A DNA stretch of 64,000 nucleotides. Origin: Acidobacteriota bacterium (GTDB lineage: Bacteria > Acidobacteriota > Terriglobia > Terriglobales > Acidobacteriaceae). The notes beneath the pieces were generated by a model, which searched no databases, was not told the origin of the DNA, and saw nothing but the letters and a program-made list of their open reading frames with translations. Where the stretch lies: positions 62,001-126,000 of the forward strand of contig QIBA01000057.1 of the NCBI GenBank assembly GCA_003225175.1, given 5' to 3'. The translations under genes were made by a program, and so were the position numbers. Shown here in pieces: positions 4,615 through 25,724 of this stretch (position 1 is the first letter of the stretch; each line of letters opens with the position of its first letter).

Positions 4615-5546
4615 TGTCGATCGTAGTCGTAGGCTCGGTAGCATATGACGGCATCAAAAGTCCTTCCGGCTCCGTAGATCGTTGTCTCGGAGGCGCGGCT
4701 ACATACTTCTCTCTCGCGGCAAGCTACTTCACACAAGTGCGCGTCGTGGCCGTCGTCGGCCAAGACTTCAGCAAGCAAGATGAAGACGTGTTGCGCGCAC
4801 GCAAAGTCGATACTCGTGGAATTGAGCACACCAAAGGGAAAAGCTTCTTCTGGCGCGGCGAGTATGGAGAGAACCTCAACGAGGCGAAAACGCTCGAGAC
4901 TCAGCTAAACGTCTTTCAGAGCTTCGACCCGCAAGTTCCCGCTGAATATTTGGACTCCCAGTACCTGTTTCTCGCCAACATTGATCCCGTCCTGCAAGGC
5001 AATGTCCGTCGCCAGATGGATGGGCGTGTGAAGCTCGTCGGCGGCGATACGATGAATTATTGGATCACCGATCCCAACCATCGCAAGAACCTGCTCGAGA
5101 CCTTGAAACGCGTGGACGTTCTGCTGATCAACGATATGGAGGCCAAACTCCTTGCACAGGAAACGAGCGTTCCTCGAGCAGTCCAGAAAGTACTGCGAAT
5201 GGGGCCGCGCGCCCTGGTCATCAAGCATGGAGAATATGGCGCCACGGTGTTTTTCAAAGAAGGTGAATTCGGCGGTGGACGGCATCCCTTTCGCGCTCCC
5301 GCGCTGCCAATGGAGGAGGTTCGCGATCCTACTGGTGCAGGCGACTCCTTCGCCGGGGGGTTCATGGGATATGTCGCCTCGCAGAAGAAGCTGGATCGGG
5401 AAACCTTCAAGCGTGCAATGTTTTACGGTGGCGTAATGGGCTCTTTTGCTGTCGAACGTTTCGGCACGGAGCGTCTGCAGTCACTCACACGCGAGGAGAT
5501 CGATGCCCGCTACCAGGTCTTCCGTGAACTCACGCATATCGGGTAA
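4614..5546 (+). CDS. PfkB-family carbohydrate/nucleoside kinase
   Basis: The 310-residue ribokinase-fold protein has an N-terminal GGAATYFSLAASYF substrate-lid segment, an LLINDMEAKLLA segment and the catalytic signature DPTGAGDSFAGGF with the base Asp near residue 240. The family phosphorylates sugars or nucleosides with ATP. It is translationally coupled to the MTA phosphorylase (shared base TGATG), which suggests a role in handling the ribose or nucleoside products of methylthioadenosine salvage. That role is inference from position only. The downstream GT-C gene starts inside its 3' end. Confidence 0.82.
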   Translation: MSIVVVGSVAYDGIKSPSGSVDRCLGGAATYFSLAASYFTQVRVVAVVGQDFSKQDEDVLRARKVDTRGIEHTKGKSFFWRGEYGENLNEAKTLETQLNVFQSFDPQVPAEYLDSQYLFLANIDPVLQGNVRRQMDGRVKLVGGDTMNYWITDPNHRKNLLETLKRVDVLLINDMEAKLLAQETSVPRAVQKVLRMGPRALVIKHGEYGATVFFKEGEFGGGRHPFRAPALPMEEVRDPTGAGDSFAGGFMGYVASQKKLDRETFKRAMFYGGVMGSFAVERFGTERLQSLTREEIDARYQVFRELTHIG

Positions 5547-7182
5547 GTCCGCCGGTTTCGCGACAGCGACGGCAGCGCCAGACGTCCAACTGAACTCGCA
5601 TTTGCGTGCTGAGGCAAGGGAATATTGGGCCGTTACGATTTTGCTCAGTCTGCTTGGGACGGTAGCCCTTTTTTTCTTCTATTCCCGAAATGAGATTCTT
5701 CTTTCCGGAGACGCTGTTGCACACATCAGCATAGCGCGCCGCGTTTTCGATTCGCGAACTCCCGGGCCGCTGCAGCTGGGCTCCGTGTGGCTCCCACTTC
5801 CGCACCTTTTGACGATTCCCTTCATTCTGAGCAAATCGATGTGGCAGTCGGGAATTGGTGGTTCCATCGTTTCAGTATTGTCATACGTTTTTGCCGGAAT
5901 CGGACTTTTCCGGCTGCTCTACCGTCGCTCGCGGGTTGCTGCTTGGATTGCGACTGCCTTGTTTGCCGCGAATCCTAACGTTCTTTATGTACAGAGCACA
6001 GCTCTGAACGAGCCACTCTATCTGGCATGTTTCATCTGGGCTGTTGTCTTTTTCGTAGAGGCTTCCCAGAGTCTCAGAGGAAACGAGCGAATCACCGGAC
6101 GCTTCTTGGAAAAAGGCGCTATGGCGCTGACGGCGGCAAACTTTACACGATATGACGGCTGGTTTCTCGCCTGCGTCTGTTGGGTCGCATTCCTGATTAA
6201 GTTCCTAGCAGAATTGCGAGTAAGCCCGCGAACGCTGATTGAATTACGTAGAACCGTATTCAAGCCCTTGCTGCTCACGGCACTAGGTCCAACTCTCTGG
6301 ATGGCCTACAACCTTGGCGTGTATATGAATCCATTGGATTTCGCCAATGGTCCGTACTCAGCGAAGGCGATTGCAGGGCGGACGACGCAGCAAGGATCGC
6401 CTTCGTACCCCGGGCAGGATCATCTCTTTACCGCTGCTGTTTACTTCGTGAAGGCAGCCCAGTTCAGTGTTGGAGAACATGAAACAGGTAGGATCCTGCT
6501 GTTTATCGCGGCTCTTGGCAGTGCGGCGTTCGCGTTACGCCGAGACTGGTTGCCGATCGCGCTGCTGTGGTCGCCCCTTGTTTTTTACTCGCTCTCAATC
6601 GCATACGGATCAGTTCCCATTTTTGTGCCGGTGTGGTGGCCTTTTTCCTACTACAACGTGCGGTACGGACTGGAGTTGCTTCCGGCGATTGCGGCTGGAG
6701 TTGGGCTTGCGATTGCTGTAATCAGGGAGAGTTGGGAGAGAGAATTGGTACCACGTCTTTCCACACTAGTGATTTTGTTGATTGGCGTATTTACGTATTC
6801 CCAATCATGGAAAGCAACTCCAGTCTGCCTGCGCGAAGTGCATGCGAATGGGAGTGGGCGCATGGAGCTCGATCATCGGCTTGCGAAAATTTTGAGCTCG
6901 TTGCCGCAGGGTTCCACCGTCCTCGCGTACACAGGAGCGCATGGTGGCGCGTTTCAATTTGCTGGCTTTCCCCTGCGCAGGACCATCAATGAGGGAAATC
7001 TCTACATTTGGGATGCCTCGCTGGCACACCCAGCGATGGACGTTGATTTCGTCATTGCAGCCGAGGACGATCCTGTAGGCTCGTCACTAAGGAATCATCC
7101 TGCCGGTCTCACCAAAATCGCATCTGTTCACCTCGCCGGACAAAGTGAGGTGACGGTTTATGAGACCTCACACTCACATTGA
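5503..7182 (+). CDS. GT-C fold membrane glycosyltransferase-like protein
   Basis: This is a 559-residue multi-spanning protein. A cytoplasmic tail of about 40 residues is followed by a first membrane helix (YWAVTILLSLLGTVALFFFY) and a short acidic loop LLSGDAVAHISIARRVF with Asp70. That is the layout of GT-C enzymes, which use lipid-linked sugars on the outer face of the membrane. The C-terminal ~120 residues are soluble. The start at 5503 is supported by GAGGAG five bases upstream. It overlaps the PfkB kinase by 44 bp, so the two are co-transcribed. Donor and acceptor are unknown. Confidence 0.65.
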   Translation: MPATRSSVNSRISGKSAGFATATAAPDVQLNSHLRAEAREYWAVTILLSLLGTVALFFFYSRNEILLSGDAVAHISIARRVFDSRTPGPLQLGSVWLPLPHLLTIPFILSKSMWQSGIGGSIVSVLSYVFAGIGLFRLLYRRSRVAAWIATALFAANPNVLYVQSTALNEPLYLACFIWAVVFFVEASQSLRGNERITGRFLEKGAMALTAANFTRYDGWFLACVCWVAFLIKFLAELRVSPRTLIELRRTVFKPLLLTALGPTLWMAYNLGVYMNPLDFANGPYSAKAIAGRTTQQGSPSYPGQDHLFTAAVYFVKAAQFSVGEHETGRILLFIAALGSAAFALRRDWLPIALLWSPLVFYSLSIAYGSVPIFVPVWWPFSYYNVRYGLELLPAIAAGVGLAIAVIRESWERELVPRLSTLVILLIGVFTYSQSWKATPVCLREVHANGSGRMELDHRLAKILSSLPQGSTVLAYTGAHGGAFQFAGFPLRRTINEGNLYIWDASLAHPAMDVDFVIAAEDDPVGSSLRNHPAGLTKIASVHLAGQSEVTVYETSHSH

Positions 7183-7212
7183 ATGCGTGAGAGATCTCGG
7201 GACAATCCTGTC

Positions 7213-8421
7213 TCAGGAAATGGTGCGCTTTAGCTGTCCGCAAGCGGCATAGATATCGCGCCCCCGAGGACGTCGAATAAACGCAGGCAGACCAGCCCCG
7301 ACCAGGATGCTCTGAAAGTCAAGAACGCGATCATGAGCCGGCATGGTGTAGCTCACTCCTGGTCCGGGATTAAAGGCAATAAGATTTATCTTGCAGCGAA
7401 TGCCTGCGAGGCGACCTGCAACTTCACGCGCGTGCTCGGCTGCGTCATTTACTCCCTCCAGCAGCACATACTCGAACGTTAGAAGTTCTCGCGGACGCAG
7501 TGGGAACTGTCGAGCTGCATCGAGCAGCATCTGCACATTCCATTTTCGCGTAATGGGCATGATACGTTCGCGAACCGTGTCATTAGGTGCGTTGAGCGAG
7601 ATGGCAAGCTTCGGACGAATCGGTTCCTTGCCGAAGTCGATGATCCGAGGCACAATGCCGGAGGTAGATACCGTCATCCGAGACTCCGGGAATTCGACCT
7701 CCTCAACCAGCAGACGAACCGCCTTCATGAAGTTTTCATAGTTCAGGAACGGTTCGCCCATGCCCATGAAGACTATGTTCATCCGCTCCTTCTCCACATT
7801 GACATCGTGGTCGCGCAGCAAAGTCAGCACCTGTCCGACGATCTCACCAGGGGTGAGATTTCGCTTCACTCCCAGCAACGCCGTAAGGCAAAATTGGCAA
7901 TTCACCGCGCACCCTACTTGGGAAGAAACGCAAATCGTTGCTCTTGATCTCGGCTTGCGGCCTGTGGGCTCCTGTGACGCCTTGCTCTGGTGAGTCTTCC
8001 CCCTCAAATGCGGAATGCGGAGAGGGGCCTTGTCGCCCGCATACTCGGATTCCAGTTGAGCAAGTTCCTCCCGGCCAGCTTCCGTTCCATCACCGGCCTC
8101 GCCGAAGTCGCCTTCAGGCATCCAGACGGTTTCGACAGACTCACCATCGGCTAAACCCATGAGGTATCGGACGGTGCCGTCCAGAGAAGTGAATTTCTGG
8201 TCGATTCGGGGAAATCCGACTGAGAGCCCTTCTTCAGCGATCTGAGACTTGAGCGTAGAGGGCAGATTGGATACGCCAACAAGCGACTCCCGACGTTGCC
8301 TGAAGATGGCATCTGCCACCTGCCGCCCGCGAAAGCCAGGATGCCCCAGGCGTTTTACAAGCTCCGTAAGCTCTTGATTCGAGAGGCTTAATAGTTCATT
8401 CGATACAGGCATGTTGGGCAT
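7213..8421 (-). CDS. rlmN: 23S rRNA (adenine-2503-C2)-methyltransferase RlmN
   Basis: This radical-SAM methyltransferase modifies A2503 of 23S rRNA (and A37 of some tRNAs). The cluster motif CAVNCQFC gives Cys171, Cys175 and Cys178, followed by LTPGEIVGQV, VFMGMGEPFLNYENF and TVSTSGIVPRI, all standard RlmN blocks. At 402 residues it is longer than typical RlmN. The excess is a hydrophilic Glu/Gly/Ser-rich insertion at about residues 104-160, just before the radical-SAM core. It stands alone, convergent with the GT-C gene and divergent from the M16 peptidase. Confidence 0.93.
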   Translation of the reverse strand: MPNMPVSNELLSLSNQELTELVKRLGHPGFRGRQVADAIFRQRRESLVGVSNLPSTLKSQIAEEGLSVGFPRIDQKFTSLDGTVRYLMGLADGESVETVWMPEGDFGEAGDGTEAGREELAQLESEYAGDKAPLRIPHLRGKTHQSKASQEPTGRKPRSRATICVSSQVGCAVNCQFCLTALLGVKRNLTPGEIVGQVLTLLRDHDVNVEKERMNIVFMGMGEPFLNYENFMKAVRLLVEEVEFPESRMTVSTSGIVPRIIDFGKEPIRPKLAISLNAPNDTVRERIMPITRKWNVQMLLDAARQFPLRPRELLTFEYVLLEGVNDAAEHAREVAGRLAGIRCKINLIAFNPGPGVSYTMPAHDRVLDFQSILVGAGLPAFIRRPRGRDIYAACGQLKRTIS

Positions 8422-10363: not shown

Positions 10364-10885
10364 ATGAAAAAGCAAAAGGGTTTCTCGCTGATTGAACTTC
10401 TGATCGTCGTGGCGATCATTCTGATCATCGCGGCTATCGCAATTCCAAACCTGCTGCGCGCCAAGATCGCGGCCAACGAGGCCTCAGCTGTGGGTTCCAT
10501 GCGCACGATCGTGACCGCCGAAGTGAGCTACAACTCAGCCGGCTGGATCGTCGGTGGTAAGCAGATAGGCTTCTCAAACGCCCTTGCGGACTTAGGTCCG
10601 AACGGCTCAACAACTCAGTGCAATCCGCCAGATGCGACGCACACCTGTTACGTCGACGCGGTTCTGTCCGGTGCAGGCACCTCAGCGACTCCGAAGAGCG
10701 GATACTTCTTCACGTACGCACCGATCGCGGCTGCCGCTGGCGGTTCCAACGTTGGTTTCAATCTGAACGGAAATCCGGCGGCGCCTGGGCAGACTGGTAA
10801 CCGTTATTTCTTTGCGGATGCGAGCGGTGTGATCCGCTTCAATCCGAGTCAGTCGGCTACCAGCGCTGACGTTCCGCTTCAATAG
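10364..10885 (+). CDS. Type IV pilin-like protein, copy 1
   Basis: This 173-residue prepilin has a short basic leader MKKQKG, then FSLIELLIVVAIILIIAAIA, the class III signal. Cleavage is expected between Gly6 and Phe7, and mature Glu5 corresponds to Glu11. The head domain has two cysteines (Cys86, Cys95) that could close an 8-residue loop, and the C-terminus is rich in Ser/Thr (SQSATSADVPLQ). The major pilus or a pseudopilus is possible, and no pil assembly genes lie in the window. A near-identical copy lies exactly 13,235 bp downstream. AAGGAG precedes the ATG and a strong terminator follows, so it is probably a single-gene transcript. Confidence 0.9.
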   Translation: MKKQKGFSLIELLIVVAIILIIAAIAIPNLLRAKIAANEASAVGSMRTIVTAEVSYNSAGWIVGGKQIGFSNALADLGPNGSTTQCNPPDATHTCYVDAVLSGAGTSATPKSGYFFTYAPIAAAAGGSNVGFNLNGNPAAPGQTGNRYFFADASGVIRFNPSQSATSADVPLQ

Positions 10886-11324: not shown

Positions 11325-12815
11325 ATGAGCACCCTACAAGGCTCCCCTGAGCTCATCCAACACCAATTTCATCAGGATTCGCGTTCGAACACGGCCAATC
11401 CGGTCCTTTGCGTCGATCTGGACGGAACTCTTATAAAAAGCGATGTGCTTCTAGAGTCCCTTCTCTTGTTCCTGAAACAGAGGCCTTGGGCTCTGTTTTT
11501 TGTCCTATTCTGGAGCCTTCGCGGACGGTCGTACCTGAAGCTTCGTCTGGCCTCCGCGGCTTCGCTGGCAATTGAAAAGCTTCCGTTTCGGCAAGAGATC
11601 CTGGACTTTATTCGTGGTGAGCACGAATCCGGACGGCAAACACTGCTGGTTACGGCTGCCCATCAAAGCCTTGCTGAGGCAATTGCGGCTCACGTGGGGC
11701 ACTTCGATGGAGTTTACGGAAGCGATGGTGTAGTGAATTTGAAAGGCAGCGCTAAGGCCGGATTCTTGGCCGGCATGCTCGGAAAAGGCAACTTCGATTA
11801 CATCGGGGATTCCTATGCCGACCTGCCGGTTTGGAGCGTCGCAAGGCAGGCATACGTAGTCGGCAGTCGGCGTCTGGCGAAAAAAGTCGCGCGCAGAGCG
11901 TCTCTCGCACGATTGTTCGAGGTCTCTCAGCCTTCATTCACTGCCTGGTTGCGCTCTATACGACTGCTGCATTGGACTAAAAATTTATTGGTTCTATTGC
12001 CAGTCTTGCTGGCGCATAACTTCACCTGGCTGGCATGGCGCGACAGCCTGCTGGGTTTTGCCTTGTTCGGCTGTTGCGCCTCTGGGCTTTACATTCTCAA
12101 TGATCTTCTTGACCTGCATTCCGATCGACAACACCCAGCCAAGAGCAAACGTCCGTTTGCTGCCGGAGAATTCCCATTGTGGGTGGGAGTCTTCGAGTCA
12201 ACGCTGCTGGTAGGTTGTTCGCTCATCATTTCGGCTTTTCTGGATTTTCCTTTTGCTGCTGCCCTGCTTGGGTACGCCGTGCTTACGGTGGCGTACTCCT
12301 GGAAGTTGAAACGAGCGCCGCTGCTGGACGTCTTTGTTCTCTCAACCTTCTACACGATTCGCATTTGGGCTGGGGGTCTGATCTCCGGCATTCCCGTCTC
12401 GGACTGGCTGATGGCATTCTCGCTATTCTTCTTCCTGAGTCTGGCCATGGCCAAGCGCCACTCCGAGCTGCAGCGAGCGAGTAGGCTGGTGGAAGAAGGG
12501 GACTCAGGTCGCGGCTACGTGCTGAAAGATCGGGAGCTGCTGGCGATGTTTGGAATTGCCAGCAGCTTTGCCGCAGTCGTGATCCTTTGCCTTTATGCCC
12601 GCAGCCCCGTCGTGAATTCGCTTTATGGAAGTTCGGCGGAGCTGCTTTGGCTCTGTCCGTTGGTGCTCTATTGGCTTACCCGCGTGTGGCTGCTCGCGGG
12701 CCGTGGCGAGCTCGATGATGATCCTGTCTTGTTTGCAGTTCGCGATCGTACCAGCTGGGTACTGGCCGTGCTTGCGATCACTATCCTGATGATTGGTGGA
12801 TTCCACACGCGATGA
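11325..12815 (+). CDS. HAD phosphatase-UbiA prenyltransferase fusion (polyprenyl-phosphate phosphoribosyltransferase-like)
   Basis: This 496-residue protein has two domains. Residues ~27-200 form a HAD-type phosphatase (DLDGTLIKSD with nucleophile Asp31, and later YIGDSYADLPVW). Residues ~210-496 form a UbiA membrane prenyltransferase with NDLLDLHSDRQHPAKSKRPF and YSWKLKRAPLLDV. Both UbiA motifs match Rv3806c, the mycobacterial enzyme that joins decaprenyl phosphate to 5-phosphoribosyl pyrophosphate. The ATG of the DprE1-like gene overlaps this stop by 4 bp. Inference: UbiA makes polyprenyl-phospho-5-phosphoribose and the HAD domain removes the 5-phosphate, so one polypeptide would do the first two steps of polyprenyl-phospho-arabinose synthesis. 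Confidence 0.85.
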   Translation: MSTLQGSPELIQHQFHQDSRSNTANPVLCVDLDGTLIKSDVLLESLLLFLKQRPWALFFVLFWSLRGRSYLKLRLASAASLAIEKLPFRQEILDFIRGEHESGRQTLLVTAAHQSLAEAIAAHVGHFDGVYGSDGVVNLKGSAKAGFLAGMLGKGNFDYIGDSYADLPVWSVARQAYVVGSRRLAKKVARRASLARLFEVSQPSFTAWLRSIRLLHWTKNLLVLLPVLLAHNFTWLAWRDSLLGFALFGCCASGLYILNDLLDLHSDRQHPAKSKRPFAAGEFPLWVGVFESTLLVGCSLIISAFLDFPFAAALLGYAVLTVAYSWKLKRAPLLDVFVLSTFYTIRIWAGGLISGIPVSDWLMAFSLFFFLSLAMAKRHSELQRASRLVEEGDSGRGYVLKDRELLAMFGIASSFAAVVILCLYARSPVVNSLYGSSAELLWLCPLVLYWLTRVWLLAGRGELDDDPVLFAVRDRTSWVLAVLAITILMIGGFHTR

Positions 12816-14173
12816 CGACCCTAGCTACAGTTCCGGAGAGGGAAGTCGCCGTAGCGGGGCGCGGCAATGCGCGAACGGAACGATATCAATCATGGGGCAG
12901 GTATCCAAAAGCGGCGCACAGAAGCGTAACGAAAATTTACTGGCGCGACGAATTGGTCGACGCCCTGCGCCGTGCAGAACCAGCATCTCTCTTACCGTAC
13001 GGCATGGGGCGCAGCTACGGCGATTGCTGCCTTAATAGCGGTCGCGACCTGCTGGACTGCACTGCTCTCAACCGCATTCTTGATTATGACTGGGAGACTG
13101 GGCGAATCTGCGTTGAAGGCGGCATTACACTCGGCGATCTGCTAAAAGTGATTGTCCCCCGAGGCTGGTTTCTGCCAGTGACTCCCGGGACAAAATTCGT
13201 GACCGTAGGCGGAGCCATCGCGAACGATGTTCACGGAAAAAATCATCATCGCGCCGGCACGTTTGGTTGCCATGTTAAGCAGATCACGCTTTACCGATCA
13301 GATAACGATCCGGTCGTCTGCTCCCCCGCCGTAAATTCCGATCTCTTTCAAGCCACCATCGCAGGCTTGGGGTTAACGGGGGTCATCGGTTCCGCTGAGA
13401 TCCAACTCAAGCGCATTGGCGGCAATGCCATCGATGTGGAAACTCTTGCCTTCCGCAATTTGGATCACTTTGTCGAACTCTCGGCTGCCAGCGACCAGAA
13501 TCACGAGTACACGGTTGCCTGGGTCGACTGCTTGTCTGGCACTGAGACGCGCGGAATATTCTTCCGCGGCAACCACGCAGAAAAGAATGTTTCCTATCGG
13601 TCGATCAAGACTAAAATTCCATTTCCTTTTCCGGAATTCGTATTGAGTCGCCCAGCCCTCGAGCTTTTTAATCGGGCATACTTTACGCTCAAAGCCCGCA
13701 ACCCTGGCTTCGCAATCGTCCACTACGATCCGTTTTTCTATCCGCTTGATTCCGTCCAGAACTGGAATCTTCTCTACGGAAGGCGAGGATTTGTTCAATA
13801 CCAATGCGTGTTACCGCCTGGAGATATCTCAGCTGTGAAGAAGATCATTGCCGCCGTATCCAAATCCGGAGAAGCATGCTTCCTGGCGGTGTTGAAAGCA
13901 CTTGGGGAAATCCAGTCTCCGGGACTCCTCTCCTTTCCTCGTCCCGGCCTAACTCTCACCGCGGATCTGCCGATGCGCGGCAATCGCACGCTTGCGTTAC
14001 TAGCCTCACTCGATGAACTGGTACTCGCAAACGGCGGGCGACTGTACCCCGCCAAGGATGCACGTATGTCCTCCGCAATGTTCACTGCCGGCTTCCCAAA
14101 TTGGACCCGGCTGGTGCCTTATATCGATCCCAAGATTTCATCCTCGTGCTGGCGACGGGTGAGGAGCGAGTAG
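12812..14173 (+). CDS. DprE1-like FAD oxidase (polyprenylphosphoryl-ribose 2'-oxidase)
   Basis: The 453-residue FAD-binding type 4 oxidoreductase is close in length to mycobacterial DprE1. It has GMGRSYGDCCL near residue 65, the FAD-pocket HGKNHHRAGTFG at 141-152, FVQYQ with Tyr330, and YPAKDARMS with Lys415, all recognisable DprE1 landmarks. The reaction would oxidise the ribose 2'-hydroxyl of the lipid-linked sugar to a keto group. The position aligned by eye with DprE1 Cys387, the benzothiazinone target, is Thr383. The gene overlaps the HAD-UbiA gene by 4 bp and is followed 6 bp later by the DprE2-like reductase, which strongly supports the pathway assignment. Confidence 0.87.
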   Translation: MTTLATVPEREVAVAGRGNARTERYQSWGRYPKAAHRSVTKIYWRDELVDALRRAEPASLLPYGMGRSYGDCCLNSGRDLLDCTALNRILDYDWETGRICVEGGITLGDLLKVIVPRGWFLPVTPGTKFVTVGGAIANDVHGKNHHRAGTFGCHVKQITLYRSDNDPVVCSPAVNSDLFQATIAGLGLTGVIGSAEIQLKRIGGNAIDVETLAFRNLDHFVELSAASDQNHEYTVAWVDCLSGTETRGIFFRGNHAEKNVSYRSIKTKIPFPFPEFVLSRPALELFNRAYFTLKARNPGFAIVHYDPFFYPLDSVQNWNLLYGRRGFVQYQCVLPPGDISAVKKIIAAVSKSGEACFLAVLKALGEIQSPGLLSFPRPGLTLTADLPMRGNRTLALLASLDELVLANGGRLYPAKDARMSSAMFTAGFPNWTRLVPYIDPKISSSCWRRVRSE

Positions 14174-14179
14174 CACTCA

Positions 14180-14914
14180 ATGAAGAAGATAGTCATACTC
14201 GGCGCCACGTCCACAATGATCCAGCCGCTGCTGCGGAGGATGGCAAATGATGGCATGGAGCTGTTGCTGGTGGCTAGATCGCAGGAGCGGCTCGACTCGG
14301 TCCGGAGTGACCTCCTGGCCCGCGGCGCAGCGAACGTGCTCACGTTCGAAACCGACCTCACTTCGTCCCCAGATATTGTTTATTCGTTCGCCGAACAGTG
14401 CTTTCGCGACTTCGACACGCTGCTGCTCTCATACGGAACGATGCTGGACCAAGATCGCTGCCAGACCGACGCGGAATACGCTCTCGGGCAGGTTCGCACA
14501 AATTTCGTAAGCTCCATAGCGCTGTTAACCATATTTGGGAAGCACTTCGAATCCCGTCGGTCAGGGACCATAGCCGTGATCACGTCGGTCGCCGGAGACC
14601 GTGGACGGCGTTCTAATTACGTGTATGGGGCGGCAAAGGGCGGGCTGAGTATCTTTCTTCAAGGCTTGCGGAGCCGTATGCACCAGTACGGAGTCAGAGT
14701 GTTAACTATCAAGCCCGGCCCAGTGGCCACGCGCATGACTGAAAATTTGCCGGGACTCAGATTGTTAGCAAGCCCGGAATTAGTTGCGGTCGACATCTAT
14801 CGCGCTCTCAGACACTCGCGTACACAGATCAGCTATACGCCTTCATACTGGAAATGGATCATGTCTGCGGTTCGAGCAATTCCAGAATCGGTTTTCAAGA
14901 GGATTCAAATCTAA
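14180..14914 (+). CDS. DprE2-like short-chain reductase (keto-arabinose-forming epimerase partner)
   Basis: This 244-residue SDR has the N-terminal IVILGATSTM cofactor motif, the catalytic stretch TSVAGDRGRRSNYVYGAAK (Tyr-x-x-x-Lys) and a C-terminal IPESVFKRIQ resembling the DprE2 tail. The DR.RRSN.VYG signature is what separates DprE2 from general SDRs. It would reduce the 2'-keto lipid-linked sugar with NAD(P)H to the arabino form, completing epimerisation of ribose to arabinose on the polyprenyl carrier. It is the third gene of the tight three-gene run starting at 11325. Confidence 0.85.
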   Translation: MKKIVILGATSTMIQPLLRRMANDGMELLLVARSQERLDSVRSDLLARGAANVLTFETDLTSSPDIVYSFAEQCFRDFDTLLLSYGTMLDQDRCQTDAEYALGQVRTNFVSSIALLTIFGKHFESRRSGTIAVITSVAGDRGRRSNYVYGAAKGGLSIFLQGLRSRMHQYGVRVLTIKPGPVATRMTENLPGLRLLASPELVAVDIYRALRHSRTQISYTPSYWKWIMSAVRAIPESVFKRIQI

Positions 14915-16215: not shown

Positions 16216-17907
16216 TCAGGGATGGGCAGATGAGGCTCCAGGCTTAGTGGCGCGAATCGCCGTCGCTTGTGTGCTTACACCTTCCGCTCCGCTAGTTGCC
16301 AAGGTCTGGCGTTCAACCTTGTAGATCAGGACTTCGGAATTCTTGTAGATTGGCGCAGTTTTGGCATAAGCGCGAAGGGTATTCGCGATAGTTTCATGAT
16401 CTTCGTCGAATGGTCCAGCAACGAAGATGAAGTCAGGCTGCAGCTTGTCAAGAATTTTGACTACACCTGACGATAGCGAGAATTCTAATGCCGCCGATAG
16501 ATCGACAGCAGTAAAAAACGCGTGATTCGGCAACCACTCGCGTCCCTGCGCTGTATTGACGCATTGTCGCTGGGTAAAGTATGGGAACCATTCTGCAATC
16601 ATGTCTTCGTACCATTCACTGGTTCTCTGGTCGAACACAAAGAATTTAGTGTTGGCTGGAGCGAGCTGGACGGCTGCCTGCATACCTTGCAGTTCGGCAG
16701 GGGACACCTGGGCGCGAGTATTGAGGCGAAGATCCGCCAGGCGATCCGATCGGACCTGAGGCAGTCCACTAAATTGCAGAGAAAAAGTGAGCGCGAGAGC
16801 TACAAGCAGAGCATCTCTCCAGCGACGAAAGAAAGCCGCGCGTCGCACGAGAAGAACCATAATGGCATTGACGAACCAAACCATACATAGCCCAGCAACG
16901 GCCGCGCTGTATGTCGCTCCGCTGCGACGTAAAAACCACGGTATGACTGTTAGCCAGCAGACGTAGGGGAATCTTGCGATGACCGCAAAAATGATTGAAG
17001 CAGCCAGAAATGACAAGGGAATCCAACGCAAGGGAGCGTAATACGCGCCCCCAGTTATTGCCGCGTTCATAAGTGGTCCAAAGCCAAGATGGCGATATAA
17101 CCAAATGACCCAAGGCAGGACGACTGCAATCGACACAATTCCCGCCAAAAGGGAGAACTGCAGGTTCTGGAACCGTTTCGGTAATAGAACGCTCAGTACA
17201 ATCACGGAGAGTGCCGCAAAGATGCCACCCTCGAGATGAGAAAGGACGGCAAGTCCCACACAGACTCCGCTCCACGCGGCCAGCATCATGGAATCGCATT
17301 TATGCGAGCGAACGAACAGGAGAATCGCGACTGAGGCGAATAACATGCCTAGGCCACGGGTTAAGCCACCTCCCATGATGAGCCATTCTGCGCTGCGGCC
17401 AATTGATGCGTAGCAACATGCGGCTAAGCAGGCATAAAAACCAGCCGGATATACTTCTTTCGCGATGAAGTAGATGACAACTACGGCCAGCAGATTTAGA
17501 GCGAGGGGCAGCCAGGTTAGTACCGAAACTGCACTCTGTCCGGTCACTACTGTACAGAGAGCGCCAAGGTAAAACCCAAGGGGAGGATAGGAAAGCGGAA
17601 TATCGAGAAAATTGTAAGTAGTATGAGTGGGAAAGACGAAATGTGCAGCGCGAATATTATCGATGATCTGCGCAAACATCCCTCCATCATTCAAGGGAAA
17701 GAGACGTCCGCGAAAATAAGGTAGGCGCAGCACCAATGCGACGGCAAGTGCAATTGCGATATCCTTAATGACGGCCCGAGTTGATCGCTGCTCAAGCGCT
17801 AACGGGTGTAATGGTAATGAGAGCTCGTGAAGAATCTCGGCTGTTGCCGCTCGATTTGTATCGAGGCTTGGGGCAGGCGCGACCGCTACGCTCTGGCGTG
17901 GTGTCAT
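16216..17907 (-). CDS. GT-C family membrane glycosyltransferase (candidate arabinosyltransferase)
   Basis: This 563-residue protein has a ~45-residue cytoplasmic tail, a first membrane span (AIALAVALVLRLPYF) and an acidic first loop (FPLNDGGMFAQIIDNI, Asp74). Nine or more further hydrophobic segments and a soluble C-terminal domain of about 160 residues follow. This is the GT-C architecture used with polyprenyl-phosphate sugars at the outer membrane face. The specific family is not recognised. Because the only complete lipid-linked donor pathway next to it is the arabinose type, an arabinofuranosyltransferase is a reasonable but unproven guess. It is divergent from the GT2 operon at 18057. 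Confidence 0.65.
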   Translation of the reverse strand: MTPRQSVAVAPAPSLDTNRAATAEILHELSLPLHPLALEQRSTRAVIKDIAIALAVALVLRLPYFRGRLFPLNDGGMFAQIIDNIRAAHFVFPTHTTYNFLDIPLSYPPLGFYLGALCTVVTGQSAVSVLTWLPLALNLLAVVVIYFIAKEVYPAGFYACLAACCYASIGRSAEWLIMGGGLTRGLGMLFASVAILLFVRSHKCDSMMLAAWSGVCVGLAVLSHLEGGIFAALSVIVLSVLLPKRFQNLQFSLLAGIVSIAVVLPWVIWLYRHLGFGPLMNAAITGGAYYAPLRWIPLSFLAASIIFAVIARFPYVCWLTVIPWFLRRSGATYSAAVAGLCMVWFVNAIMVLLVRRAAFFRRWRDALLVALALTFSLQFSGLPQVRSDRLADLRLNTRAQVSPAELQGMQAAVQLAPANTKFFVFDQRTSEWYEDMIAEWFPYFTQRQCVNTAQGREWLPNHAFFTAVDLSAALEFSLSSGVVKILDKLQPDFIFVAGPFDEDHETIANTLRAYAKTAPIYKNSEVLIYKVERQTLATSGAEGVSTQATAIRATKPGASSAHP

Positions 17908-21414: not shown

Positions 21415-23175
21415 TTAGGAAGGTGTTTTCTGCAGGCTCTTCTGAATCGCGAGTTCTTTTTCGGCTTCTTCACTCTTGCCCACGGCTTTGAGCGCTGACG
21501 CCAATCTTCCGTGAAGAAATGCCCGGTTCGGAGTTCGTCTGAGTTGCTCGCGGTAGATCTCTACGGCCTCATCGCCTTTTCCCACGTTCAAATCAACACC
21601 TGCCAGCCCGAGGGTCGCCATGAGATTATGCCCACCCCATAGCTTCGAAGCCGTTTGATATGCTTCACGAGCTTCTGTGTACTTTTGCTCGGAGCTAAGC
21701 ACATTCCCGAGGATATACCAGCCTTCCGGATCCTGATTTGGACCGATCACGCTGCGAGCAAATGCTTCCGCCTTTGCGTATTGTCCCAAGAAGACGCATG
21801 TGTCCGCATGGTATTCCAGCGCCTTCGGGTTTGCGGGAGCAATCTGCACAGCCCGTGTCGAAAGCGCCATGTCGTTGTCCCAATATGACTCATACTTCAG
21901 AGTAAGCCCTGCCATCAGAGCAAAGAGTAAGAGTAGGGCAGCACCTTGAGTGTGAGCGCCTAGAATCCGAAGATGATCGACTAAATACGCAATACCAATA
22001 CACAAAGCAACTGAAGAGAGATAGATATACCGGTCATGTTCCTGCAACACTACGACGTAAAGAATTACCGGAGCGAGCATGAGTACGAACCAGCTGGCAA
22101 AGAAGATCCCAATAGGTTTTCGTCTAACCGCCCAGGCAACTCCAACCGTACTCACCAGGACCAAAATCAGCGGCAACACAAACTTCACCAGCGAAAGTGT
22201 GAACACGAGCTTGATCGGATACTGAACACTCAATTCACTCGGCCATAACTGTTTCCCAAGGTACCAAACGATTGTGGTTGGAGCGCTGAAGATTGTAGTC
22301 TTTAGCGGGACCTGTCGCATGCCTTGGCCAAGTTGGTTGTGTACCAGGAGGCTCCTTGCTGAAATGGCCAGCGCTGTCACAGCCAAGAACGGCAATGCAG
22401 CCCTGAGGCTTGCCAGGCAGCGATCACGAAAGCGGGCATTGGCGGAACTGAATTCATAAATGGCGATCAGAATCGGAGCAAATATCGCTGCCTCTTTAGA
22501 AAATAATGCCAGCAGCAACAATAAGGTCGAAATCGCGTGGTACTTAAGTTTGCGCCCAGTAGTGTCGTTGCGAGCCTTGAAATACAAAATCATGGAGGCC
22601 AGGAAAAGCACTGCCGAAAGGGAATCGCTGATGCCGGAAATCCAGGCAGCGGTCTCAACCCTGGTGGGATGTAACCCGAAAAATCCTGCCGCAATCGCAG
22701 CAACTCTCTTGTCGCCAATCGTCTCGAAAGCGAGTCGATAGACCAAATATGTTGCCAAAATGTGGAGTCCTGCGGCGGCGAGATGAAACCATGCGGGAGC
22801 TGGCCCTAAGAGATGACGAATCATCGCCAGGACGAGCGACACGAGCGGTCGGTAATAATCCATCGTCCGCGGGACTTCCATGAAACCCCAGAATGAATGG
22901 GTAAGGAATTGGGGAAACTGTTTCCAGGATTCCATCCACGGATGCAATGTGATCAGGAGCGAGTCGTCATAAACGTAATCGAAGAGAGCCGTCCGTAGAT
23001 AAATCAGAGTCGTCGCGTAGAGTACGACGCGGATTAGAACTGCAGGCTGGATGAACCACTGAGACCAGGCTTGGAGGCGGCTGCGATCAGAAGTTGCGGG
23101 GCGATCGAGCGTGGGGATAATTATGGCGCTCAAGGTCGACTCACTTTGTCGGAGAATAAATACTGGTTTTCTCAT
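21415..23175 (-). CDS. GT-C membrane protein with C-terminal TPR repeats (TMTC-like)
   Basis: This 586-residue protein has a first membrane span at about 45-62, then the acidic loop FDYVYDDSLLI (Asp70, Asp71), and about ten further spans. An FGLHPTRVETAAWISGISD segment is typical of the bacterial relatives of eukaryotic TMTC O-mannosyltransferases. The last ~180 residues are TPR repeats (PANPKALEYHADTCVFLGQY, EGWYILGNVLSSEQKYTEA). Such proteins are thought to add sugars to exported proteins, with the TPRs contacting the acceptor. It is convergent with the FAD oxidoreductase and faces away from pilin copy 2. Confidence 0.72.
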   Translation of the reverse strand: MRKPVFILRQSESTLSAIIIPTLDRPATSDRSRLQAWSQWFIQPAVLIRVVLYATTLIYLRTALFDYVYDDSLLITLHPWMESWKQFPQFLTHSFWGFMEVPRTMDYYRPLVSLVLAMIRHLLGPAPAWFHLAAAGLHILATYLVYRLAFETIGDKRVAAIAAGFFGLHPTRVETAAWISGISDSLSAVLFLASMILYFKARNDTTGRKLKYHAISTLLLLLALFSKEAAIFAPILIAIYEFSSANARFRDRCLASLRAALPFLAVTALAISARSLLVHNQLGQGMRQVPLKTTIFSAPTTIVWYLGKQLWPSELSVQYPIKLVFTLSLVKFVLPLILVLVSTVGVAWAVRRKPIGIFFASWFVLMLAPVILYVVVLQEHDRYIYLSSVALCIGIAYLVDHLRILGAHTQGAALLLLFALMAGLTLKYESYWDNDMALSTRAVQIAPANPKALEYHADTCVFLGQYAKAEAFARSVIGPNQDPEGWYILGNVLSSEQKYTEAREAYQTASKLWGGHNLMATLGLAGVDLNVGKGDEAVEIYREQLRRTPNRAFLHGRLASALKAVGKSEEAEKELAIQKSLQKTPS

Positions 23176-23598
23176 ACTCCAGTCGTTCTCGCCGCGATAT
23201 CAAGCTGAAGATGCCGGGCGGGATAACCGAGGTAATAGGAACAGGTAGAGAGCTAAAGCAGGATTTGCGCGGCCAGCATTTAAGGAGTGAGCTCCTCGTC
23301 TTAATGTTTGCAAATTCAGGGTTAGCGGAGCGTACGGCACGTTTAACTCCCTTCTGACAAATTCCGTCCGGCTCCAATGACATAATCTGTCAAATTGGCT
23401 CTAACGCCCCTCATTCCCGAGCCCCATTTGGTTTGAAAGCCTCGCGTAAGTCGTTGACTTTACTAGACAATGTGCCAATTCTGGTCCTTGCTACGAAAGT
23501 GGTACCCCGGTTGCGATTACAGGGGTCGTCAACCAGCGGGGTTTTGCCCGCTAGGAAGAACGCAGACGGCCGTTCCTGGCCATCCTAAAAGGAGCAAA
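23176..23598. other. Divergent intergenic region upstream of pilin copy 2
   Basis: No gene is seen in these ~420 bp between the TMTC-like gene and pilin copy 2. It shares no obvious similarity with the region upstream of pilin copy 1. A weak promoter-like TTGACT lies at 23454-23459, and a hairpin AGCGGG/CCCGCT lies near 23536-23553. AAAAGGAG directly precedes the pilin ATG. The longer frame opening at 23470 only adds a non-pilin extension and is rejected. Confidence 0.4.
23378..23392. promoter_or_regulatory. Inverted repeat, possible operator
   Basis: TGACA and TGTCA half-sites are separated by five bases, with a further TGACA at 23355 in the same region. The site lies between the divergent TMTC-like and pilin genes, where a shared regulator could act. 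It is seen in sequence only; the binding protein is unknown. Confidence 0.25.
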
Positions 23599-24120
23599 AT
23601 GAAGAAGCAAAAGGGTTTCTCGCTGATTGAACTTTTGATTGTCGTGGCGATCATTCTGATCATCGCGGCTATCGCAATTCCAAACCTGCTGCGCGCCAAG
23701 ATCGCGGCTAACGAGGCCTCGGCTGTTGGTTCCATGCGCACCATCGTGACGGCCGAAGTGAGCTACAACTCAGCCGGTTGGTTGAGCGGTGGTAACCAGA
23801 TTGGCTTCTCGAACGCCCTTGCGGACTTGGGTCCGAACGGCTCAACAACTCAGTGCAATCCGCCAGATGCGACGCACACCTGTTACGTCGACGCGGTTCT
23901 GTCCGGTGCAGGCACCTCAGCGACTCCGAAGAGCGGATACTTCTTCACGTACGCACCGATCGCGGCTGCCGCTGGCGGTTCCAACGTTGGTTTCGCACTG
24001 AATGGCAACCCGGCAGCGCCTGGGCAGACTGGTAACCGTTATTTCTATGCGGATGCGAGCGGTGTGATCCGCTTCAACCCGAGCCAGTCGGCCACGAGCA
24101 GCGACGTCCCACTTCAGTAG
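23599..24120 (+). CDS. Type IV pilin-like protein, copy 2
   Basis: This 173-residue prepilin differs from copy 1 at only six positions: I62L, V63S, K66N, N133A, F150Y and A168S. It shares the MKKQKG|FSLIELL cleavage site, the Cys86/Cys95 pair and the Ser/Thr-rich end. The identity stops at the gene borders. Within the gene, 165 bp (23830-23994) are base-for-base identical to 10595-10759, while flanking parts carry silent differences, a pattern expected from gene conversion. The start is fixed by AAAAGGAG and by the pilin leader. A terminator and then a GT-C gene follow. Confidence 0.9.
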   Translation: MKKQKGFSLIELLIVVAIILIIAAIAIPNLLRAKIAANEASAVGSMRTIVTAEVSYNSAGWLSGGNQIGFSNALADLGPNGSTTQCNPPDATHTCYVDAVLSGAGTSATPKSGYFFTYAPIAAAAGGSNVGFALNGNPAAPGQTGNRYFYADASGVIRFNPSQSATSSDVPLQ

Positions 24121-24146: not shown

Positions 24147-24176
24147 GGGAGTCGCGGCAACGCGACTCCCTTGTTT
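24147..24176 (+). terminator. Rho-independent terminator of pilin copy 2
   Basis: A 10-bp perfect stem (GGGAGTCGCG with CGCGACTCCC) closed by a GCAA tetraloop is followed by a T-rich tail. The tail runs to within a few bases of the next gene's start, so read-through would be needed for co-expression. Confidence 0.88.
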
Positions 24177-24182
24177 ATTTCC

Positions 24183-25724
24183 GTGAGCCAATCCTCTCCC
24201 AACACCGAAATCACCCAGGGCTACGGCTTGCCGCTGCGTGCGGCAGGCTGGTTGTTTGTCTGCCTTAGTTGCATCTATGCACTTGCCTCCTCCGGCAGGA
24301 TCCGAACGCCGGATGAATACATGCCATTTTTCCAGGCGCAAAGCCTGGTCGAGCGCGGCTCGACGGCGATTCCTCAGGCGGTGCAGTTCAGGGATTTCTA
24401 CGGAGCATTCGACCGCCACGGACAGCCGCGAGCTCCCTATCCGGCGGGTCAGGCGTTCGCCTCTGTACCGCCTATGGTGGCAGGGAAATTTTTGCTGGCA
24501 CACCTGCCCGGAGTTCCGCGCACGCCGGAAGTGATCTTTTACATTCAGGTATTCGGCGCGGTGTTCAGCAGCGCTCTTGCAGCGGCTGGGGCGATGGCAT
24601 TCTTCTCCTTGACGCTCTCTGCACTTGGTGTTTCGGTACGAACTGCGCTGATCGCCACATTGTGCGTTGCCTTTGGCACTCTGATTTTTCCATATTCGGG
24701 ATATTTCTTTTCGGAACCCTTTAGCGCTCTGGTCATGATGGCAGCGGTATATCTCCTTGCCCTTGACGGAGGGCGAATGAACGACAAGAACGCCGTCGCT
24801 ATCGGATTCCTGCTTGCCCTGGCAATTTGGATTCGTCCCACAATGGTTTTTGCGACCGGCGTCTTCGCAATCGGGATTCTGCTCCGTGAAGGTCGAGCCG
24901 CCTTCAGACGTGCAATGGTTATTTGCTCCATTCCTGCGATCTCCGCACTGTTCTATCTGCTCTCGAACAAAATTGTTTTTGGGCGAGCGCTGAATTTTGG
25001 ATATCCCGAAACGGAAGATGTGTTGGGGAAACAGCTTAATTCTTTTCACGCACCTTTTTATGTTGGTCTTACCGGATTTCTGTTCTCGCCGGGCAAATCG
25101 ATCTTCATTTTCATGCCAATTTTGCTGCTCGCGATTTTGGGCATGCGGCAACTCTGGACCCGTGATCGGGCTGTTGCCGTCGTTAGCGCGGGATTGCCAT
25201 TCGTATACCTCCTGTTCTACATGCGCTACACGCAGTGGGAAGGTGGGATCTGTCCTGGACCGAGGTATCTGCTTCCGTTCCTGATCGTTACTTGTCTTTC
25301 GGCCGGCATTCTTCTCACGACCGGCAGCTCACTCCTTCGGAAGTGGCTGGTGGTGCTGACCGTGGTCGGCTTCGCAGTACAGGTGATTACTTATTCGACG
25401 AGCTTTCTCGAAGATCAGGTGATCGGCACGGGAACTTATTACGATTCCAAGCTCACATACCGAATGAGCTACGACCCGTTGGTGAGTCAGACAAGGCGGC
25501 TGATTGAATATGTCGATGGCAGACCAGCGCCGGTGGGACTTGGATTCGATCGCTGGTTCGTCTTCTTGCATAAGTTGGGAGTGCCTTGGTATACGGAATT
25601 GTTGATCGCTGCATTCCCGGTACTCTTGCTCGCACTGAGCCTGGTTCGTCTGAAGCGGATGCTCAGAGAGCAGGGGCAGAGCTTGCCTGAGTCTCCCGCA
25701 GTGCGCGTACAAGCGCCGAGCTGA
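24183..25724 (+). CDS. GT-C family membrane glycosyltransferase next to pilin copy 2
   Basis: This 513-residue protein has about ten membrane spans. After the first span comes an acidic loop RTPDEYMPFFQAQSL (Asp44, Glu45), followed by a conserved APYPAGQA segment and a late WEGGICPGPRYLLPFL motif of the kind seen in GT-C mannosyl- and arabinosyl-type transferases. The frame is open from a TTG at 24171, but that codon lies in the terminator tail, so GTG 24183 is preferred. Neither start has a good ribosome-binding site. Its place just 3' of a pilin gene recalls the pilin glycosyltransferases TfpO and TfpW of Pseudomonas, and a pilin-glycosylating role is inferred. Confidence 0.62.
   Translation: MSQSSPNTEITQGYGLPLRAAGWLFVCLSCIYALASSGRIRTPDEYMPFFQAQSLVERGSTAIPQAVQFRDFYGAFDRHGQPRAPYPAGQAFASVPPMVAGKFLLAHLPGVPRTPEVIFYIQVFGAVFSSALAAAGAMAFFSLTLSALGVSVRTALIATLCVAFGTLIFPYSGYFFSEPFSALVMMAAVYLLALDGGRMNDKNAVAIGFLLALAIWIRPTMVFATGVFAIGILLREGRAAFRRAMVICSIPAISALFYLLSNKIVFGRALNFGYPETEDVLGKQLNSFHAPFYVGLTGFLFSPGKSIFIFMPILLLAILGMRQLWTRDRAVAVVSAGLPFVYLLFYMRYTQWEGGICPGPRYLLPFLIVTCLSAGILLTTGSSLLRKWLVVLTVVGFAVQVITYSTSFLEDQVIGTGTYYDSKLTYRMSYDPLVSQTRRLIEYVDGRPAPVGLGFDRWFVFLHKLGVPWYTELLIAAFPVLLLALSLVRLKRMLREQGQSLPESPAVRVQAPS

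Follow-up and report, generated by a model that had tools for sequence, protein, structure and literature searches.

One gene in the window, the stretch of 64,000 nucleotides of acidobacterial DNA analysed here, encodes a HAD-type phosphatase and a UbiA-type transferase on the same chain and is followed by genes resembling those for DprE1 and DprE2. The locus raises the question of whether a single polypeptide makes the 5-phospho intermediate of an arabinose-lipid pathway and also dephosphorylates it. In mycobacteria, the second step is assigned to a separate phosphatase, Rv3807c, which is described as unrelated to HAD proteins (PMC11127046). The gene has the following features, all on the + strand, with the type of evidence in parentheses:

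11325..12815, + strand: HAD-UbiA fusion gene, 496 aa (ORF, Pfam, NCBIfam, predicted model)
11391..11927, + strand: HAD phosphatase domain, residues 23-201 (Pfam, motifs, predicted model)
11415-11429, + strand: HAD motif I, 31-DLDGT-35 (motif)
11652, + strand: HAD motif II, T110 (motif)
11754, + strand: HAD motif III, K144 (motif)
11805-11822, + strand: HAD motif IV, 161-GDSxxD-166 (motif)
11934..12809, + strand: UbiA domain, Rv3806c-like, residues 204-495 (Pfam, sequence alignment, predicted model)
12099-12125, + strand: UbiA residues N259-D267 (alignment)
12453-12467, + strand: UbiA residues K377-E381 (alignment)

The reading frame is single and intact, with an ATG start, no internal stops and 496 residues. 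Both halves pass their Pfam cut-offs, the N-terminal HAD domain (PF12710, residues 31-169) with 40.4 bits against 27 and the C-terminal UbiA domain (PF01040, residues 223-468) with 67.6 bits against 34.2, and the protein as a whole belongs to NCBIfam NF006088 (PRK08238, “UbiA family prenyltransferase”; score 572 bits, cut-off 351). This last match spans residues 18-492, so that NCBIfam curates the two domains together as one family. Its cut-off was passed in 13 of 61 relatives (own genome included), and full-length fusions are found in 35 of 347 genomes of the phylum, a count that omits two partial matches over the cut-off, one cut short (G145) and one covering the UbiA part only (G308). The fusion is therefore no assembly accident, and the earlier note on this DNA was correct in placing HAD and UbiA on one chain. 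An AlphaFold2 model, with 73 fusions as the input alignment, has a mean pLDDT of 92.1 and a pTM of 0.88.

The HAD half was described in the earlier note as having intact DLDGT and GDS..D motifs, and both are indeed present (D31LDGT35 and G161DSYAD166) together with T110 and K144, so that the nucleophilic Asp of loop I and the residues of the other motifs (D31, D33, T110, K144, D162 and D166) are in place. The predicted model resembles 3fvv (VIA Z 16.7) and SerB phosphoserine phosphatases (Z about 14), with a helical cap (helices 41-52, 54-65 and 68-78) after the first strand as in the SerB fold type; the HAD domain alone found no close relative among PDB sequences (best E 0.26). D31, D33, G34, T35, K144 and D166 never vary in the 73 aligned fusions, a set of named loci found partly via the pattern LCVDLDGT (present in 67/73 rows), so that the conservation of motif I in it is partly selected. 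D31, D33, T35, K144 and D166 are likewise invariant in 13 relatives found by profile without the motif pattern. The first acidic position of motif IV, usually held to bind metal, is Asp in the window protein (residue 162) and in 26 of the 73 fusions and Asn in the other 47; Asn there is an unusual, tolerated change.

The UbiA half resembles Rv3806c, the DPPR synthase of M. tuberculosis (PDB 8j8j, 8j8k), in its fold, in 11 of 12 substrate contacts and in having a product that would pass to DprE1/DprE2. The stretches NDLLDLHSDRQHPAKSKRP (259-277) and KRHSEL (377-382) align with Rv3806c, and N259, D260, D263 and D267 of loop II and R378 and E381 of loop IV are all present; these residues and K377 never vary in the 73 aligned fusions. 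Twelve residues of Rv3806c have been described as contacting PRPP or decaprenyl phosphate (R22, K28, Y70, N73, D77, K87, R90, Q135, Y138, K143, Y157 and K191; PMC10994848), and when mapped by sequence alignment all but Q135, which is replaced by T321, are identical in the window protein. The phosphoribose-binding residues are reported not to be conserved in other UbiA proteins (PMC10994848), and the identity at 11/12 positions thus points to a phosphoribosyltransferase rather than to an ordinary prenyltransferase. The predicted model aligns with 8j8j over 285 residues (VIA Z 28.8, rmsd 2.7; Foldseek E 1.9e-10), with other UbiA structures clearly below (Z about 19-21). The presence of Rv3806c motifs in this half, as read in the earlier note, is confirmed by these contacts and this structural match. 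The two proteins differ in that Rv3806c has no HAD domain and, besides the substitution at Q135, in that the window protein misses the NCBIfam DPPRS equivalog cut-offs (NF008978, 142/207 bits; NF008977, 120.5/234 bits; NF008976, 100.1/474 bits).

A biochemical precedent is ORF15 (AWU66546.1) of Citrobacter youngae O1, a bifunctional polyprenyl phosphoribose synthase (PPPRS) and phosphoribosyl phosphatase (PRP) whose chain begins with the HAD phosphatase and ends with the UbiA synthase (Kelly et al. 2024, PMC11127046). ORF15 is reported to convert PRPP and farnesyl phosphate to farnesyl-phospho-ribofuranose, and its HAD-nucleophile mutant D18A to accumulate the 5-phospho product with a small dephosphorylated remainder (PMC11127046). 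ORF15 and the window protein share the HAD-UbiA order, a place at the start of a pentofuranose pathway and nearly equal spacing of the tested residues (D18-N247, 229, against D31-N259, 228; N247-R366 and R366-E369, 119 and 3 in both), as judged from the residue numbers given in PMC11127046. The pathway of ORF15 places alpha-ribofuranose on an O antigen by means of a MATE flippase and a GT136 transferase, whereas the window has DprE1/DprE2-like genes downstream of the fusion, pointing to arabinofuranose. The D18A biochemistry and the counterpart residues here support, by analogy, the suggestion in the earlier note that the HAD half removes the 5-phosphate of polyprenyl-phospho-5-phosphoribose. 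This idea is not new, being already in print via ORF15; no report of the fused enzyme together with DprE1 in Acidobacteriota was found in the literature searched.

Pilin arabinosylation in Pseudomonas offers a further parallel, PMC11127046 describing a PPPRS with a C-terminal PRP domain in P. syringae B728a and a related system in P. aeruginosa PA7. These systems resemble the window in combining a phosphoribosyltransferase with a phosphatase, and D-Araf is predicted on their type IV pilin; the domain order of the P. syringae enzyme, however, is reversed relative to the window protein, and the PA7 synthase is without the PRP domain (PMC11127046). DprE1/E2 homologues are also recorded in candidate systems for Araf-containing glycans (PMC11127046).

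The genes that surround the fusion and bear on its product are:

10364..10885, + strand: type IV pilin-like gene, upstream (Pfam)
12812..14173, + strand: DprE1-like FAD oxidase, 453 aa (NCBIfam, PDB match, overlap)
14180..14914, + strand: DprE2-like SDR reductase, 244 aa (NCBIfam)
16216..17907, - strand: PMT_2-type GT-C membrane protein (Pfam)

The oxidase gene and the fusion gene share four bases, the start codon of the one and the TGA stop of the other lying within ATGA (12812-12815), and the best PDB match of the oxidase is mycobacterial DprE1 (1.9e-65). Since the oxidase and the reductase fall below their equivalog cut-offs (350/500 bits for NF053785 and 158.6/250 bits for NF053786), we name their genes DprE1-like and DprE2-like. 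In an alignment of the oxidase with mycobacterial DprE1 (4aut), the Cys of GWNVCVDFP, which we take to be the covalent benzothiazinone site, corresponds to Thr in the window protein.

We consider it very likely that the window protein is bifunctional in the manner of ORF15: UbiA transfers phosphoribose and HAD removes the 5'-phosphate, after which the DprE1/DprE2-like proteins epimerise the product to an arabinofuranose lipid. The UbiA half would act at the cytoplasmic face of the membrane, where it would move 5-phosphoribose from PRPP onto a polyprenyl phosphate that is probably undecaprenyl phosphate. The HAD half, using Mg2+ and the nucleophile D31, would then hydrolyse the 5'-phosphate and leave polyprenyl-phospho-ribofuranose, and the DprE1-like oxidase and DprE2-like reductase would invert C2 to give polyprenyl-phospho-D-arabinofuranose. 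Once this lipid had been flipped to the other side of the membrane, a GT-C arabinosyltransferase would use it to modify some surface glycan or protein. The present analysis shows the domain architecture, the intact motifs, the predicted fold, the overlap of the genes and the co-occurrence with DprE1, and both half-reactions have been shown elsewhere for an enzyme of matching architecture; we infer the activity of the window protein itself, the arabinose product, and the flippase, transferase and acceptor.

The distribution of the fusion follows that of DprE1 in the 61 relatives, in the phylum and among named loci elsewhere, although the counts for relatives and phylum are phylogenetically non-independent, most fusion genomes coming from one family. 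DprE1 is present (E 1e-40 or better) in 12/61 relatives, all of which carry the fusion, and one further relative (G022) carries the fusion but no DprE1. In seven of these 12 (own, L034, L035, L038, L041, L043 and L044) the genes for the fusion, DprE1 and DprE2 are consecutive, a short ORF separates fusion and DprE1 on one contig in L037, and in the remaining four the two are far apart or on separate contigs. Across the 347 genomes of the phylum, 73 have DprE1; 31 have both genes, four the fusion alone, 42 DprE1 alone and 270 neither, so that DprE1 accompanies 31/35 full-length fusions against 42/312 of the other genomes (Fisher p 7e-20, kinship ignored). A scan of genome contigs gave 80 named fusion loci, the best of 541, and these span eight named phyla and one unassigned lineage. 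Among these best 80 of 541, the locus includes DprE1 in 46 and DprE2 in 44, and in 40 the gene immediately after the fusion, in the same orientation, is DprE1; a genome-wide search for the other 34 found DprE1 in 12 more (58/80 in total). The linkage with DprE1/DprE2, for which the earlier note had proposed a survey of domain fusions, holds in this survey. DprE1 was found neither in the locus nor in the genome for 22 of the best 80 of 541, and the fusion alone accordingly does not imply arabinose. The six closest of the best 80 of 541 loci (52-54% identity) are from MAGs labelled Acidobacteriaceae or Terriglobia, which makes an origin of the window in Acidobacteriota most likely.

Relatives of the fusion protein also occur in 84 plasmid records. 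On pNGR234a, the symbiosis plasmid of S. fredii NGR234 (L156, NC_000914.2), the gene after a HAD-UbiA fusion at 6941-8410 encodes an NAD(P)-dependent oxidoreductase. Genes for an SMR transporter and an epimerase come about 5 kb further along, and no DprE1 is annotated in that stretch; this fusion perhaps serves a different pentofuranose.

The phylum also contains a second arrangement. When lists were compared by eye, an unfused UbiA relative was present in 41 of the 42 genomes that are DprE1-positive and fusion-less, and alongside the 31 genomes with fusion and DprE1 this indicates two versions of the pathway. A HAD-domain search (E 0.001) found a free-standing relative of the window HAD in 0 of 20 tested among those 42 genomes and none in four relatives without the fusion; in the own genome it returned only the gene itself. 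Pfam likewise detected neither HAD nor PAP2 phosphatases among six neighbours of unfused UbiA and DprE1 pairs (L136, L137 and L138), while the contig of another such pair (L145) carries no further neighbour.

The rhizobial noeCNHOP operon resembles the window in its related UbiA protein and in having DprE1-like and then DprE2-like genes in the same order. It differs in that NoeC has no HAD domain and in that a GtrA-type gene (noeN) stands between noeC and the DprE1-like gene. NoeC of IRBG74 (L158, NC_022536.1, 5419-6582) is a 387-residue UbiA protein with 38% identity to the window UbiA half over 300 residues, and IRBG74 makes arabinosylated Nod factors although its NoeC is without HAD; another phosphatase can therefore carry out the dephosphorylation. 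The NoeC proteins (L158, 5419-6582; L159, 4419-5582) are extended at the N terminus by about 100 residues that match no Pfam family, and within the L158 and L159 stretches no match to a HAD remnant rose above chance. These observations qualify the reading of the HAD half as the dephosphorylating step: ORF15 D18A supports the role, whereas the residual activity of that mutant and the HAD-less NoeC speak against strict necessity. By this analogy, the HAD half may only accelerate a step within reach of other phosphatases.

NoeN has been suggested as the phosphatase of Nod-factor arabinosylation (PMC5080398). The IRBG74 gene that we take as noeN by its position in the operon scores 36.6 bits against a cut-off of 26.1 for GtrA/DPMS transmembrane (PF04138), and the gene in this position is annotated as GtrA family in both plasmids (L158, 6579-7001; L159, 5579-6001). 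Sinorhizobium alkalisoli has the same GtrA-type arrangement as IRBG74. The GtrA gene of R. leguminosarum OyaliB is flanked by a complete HAD-UbiA fusion on one side and the DprE1-like gene on the other, a setting in which a second phosphatase would be superfluous. Judged by its family match, a flippase-type role fits NoeN better than that of a phosphatase, and the published assignment probably needs correction.

Three other explanations of the window protein deserve consideration. The UbiA family is large and the genome has two further UbiA genes, so that the UbiA half might be an ordinary prenyltransferase of quinone, haem or lipid biosynthesis with an incidental HAD fusion; we regard this as extremely improbable given that 11/12 Rv3806c contacts are kept, those to phosphoribose included (PMC10994848), and that the PDB sequence matches are to Rv3806c only. 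It is quite improbable that the HAD half targets another substrate (free phosphoribose or another sugar phosphate) or is mainly structural or regulatory, leaving a general phosphatase to remove the 5-phosphate. That reading would accommodate the activity kept by ORF15 D18A (PMC11127046), the Nod-factor arabinosylation supported by HAD-less NoeC, and the unfused UbiA in 41/42 DprE1-only genomes with a free HAD relative in 0/20 tested. The catalytic residues, however, are invariant in both the 73 and the 13 sequences, unlike those of a decayed regulatory domain, and D18A shifts the product as a phosphatase step predicts (PMC11127046).

The enzyme might also be as described but the operon product ribofuranose or another pentofuranose, with the DprE1- and DprE2-like proteins acting elsewhere. 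The missed DprE1 and DprE2 equivalog cut-offs are consistent with such a product, as are the fusions without DprE1 (22 of the best 80 of 541 named loci and 4/35 phylum genomes), but it is made unlikely by the presence of both a DprE1-like and a DprE2-like gene in one operon with overlapping genes, by the best structure matches of the oxidase being mycobacterial DprE1 (1.9e-65), and by the DprE1/E2 homologues described in Araf-glycan candidate systems (PMC11127046). The bifunctional enzyme followed by epimerisation to arabinofuranose is our preferred reading, and the earlier interpretation is, by analogy with ORF15, very probably right for the window protein.

The surroundings of the operon suggest a region devoted to surface glycosylation. 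Four large membrane proteins, GT-C-like or multi-pass, are encoded around it (5446-7182, 16216-17907, 21415-23175 and 24171-25724), and a second pilin-like reading frame lies at 23470-24120. The PMT_2-type protein at 16216-17907 is one of several candidate arabinosyltransferases; phmmer matched none of the GT-C proteins of the window to NoeP or to the GT87 neighbours, and the protein at 21415-23175 matches a neighbour gene in fusion locus L035. The operon contains no PAP2 phosphatase, the three PAP2 genes of the genome all lying on other contigs.

The upstream pilin-like protein (10364-10885) is a possible arabinose acceptor. Pilin glycosylation may be the purpose of the operon, as the comparison with Pseudomonas pilin arabinosylation invites, but among 12 other fusion loci (L034-L045) a pilin homologue adjoins the fusion only in L041; in L043 a pilin fragment lies about 8 kb off, beyond the opposite end of the operon. 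No transferase or flippase emerged as a partner common to the loci: gene clustering over 93 fusion loci and the window gave only the fusion (87 loci), DprE1 (50) and DprE2 (38) as frequent clusters, the next occurring in 13 loci, where loci end at contig ends and partial genes can drop from the fusion cluster.

The enzyme type is already known, and what is new here is a comparative frame for the distribution of the fusion against that of DprE1. We propose, tentatively and with rather less than even confidence, that HAD-UbiA followed by DprE1-like and DprE2-like genes is a common non-actinobacterial D-arabinofuranose lipid pathway that occurs in at least six named phyla and has the same polypeptide make and dephosphorylate the 5-phospho intermediate. 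In the organism studied here it would feed GT-C enzymes decorating a surface structure, possibly the nearby type IV pilins, while an unfused branch that includes NoeC would use another phosphatase, with NoeN as a flippase-type partner. The GtrA-type score of NoeN sharpens the question of which enzyme dephosphorylates the intermediate in HAD-less systems, and the fused enzyme offers a simple soluble-plus-membrane assay of this step. The ORF15-type two-in-one enzyme would thereby be extended from ribose-decorated O antigens to DprE1/DprE2-like operons of acidobacteria and other phyla, an extension that predicts D-arabinofuranose in further bacteria.
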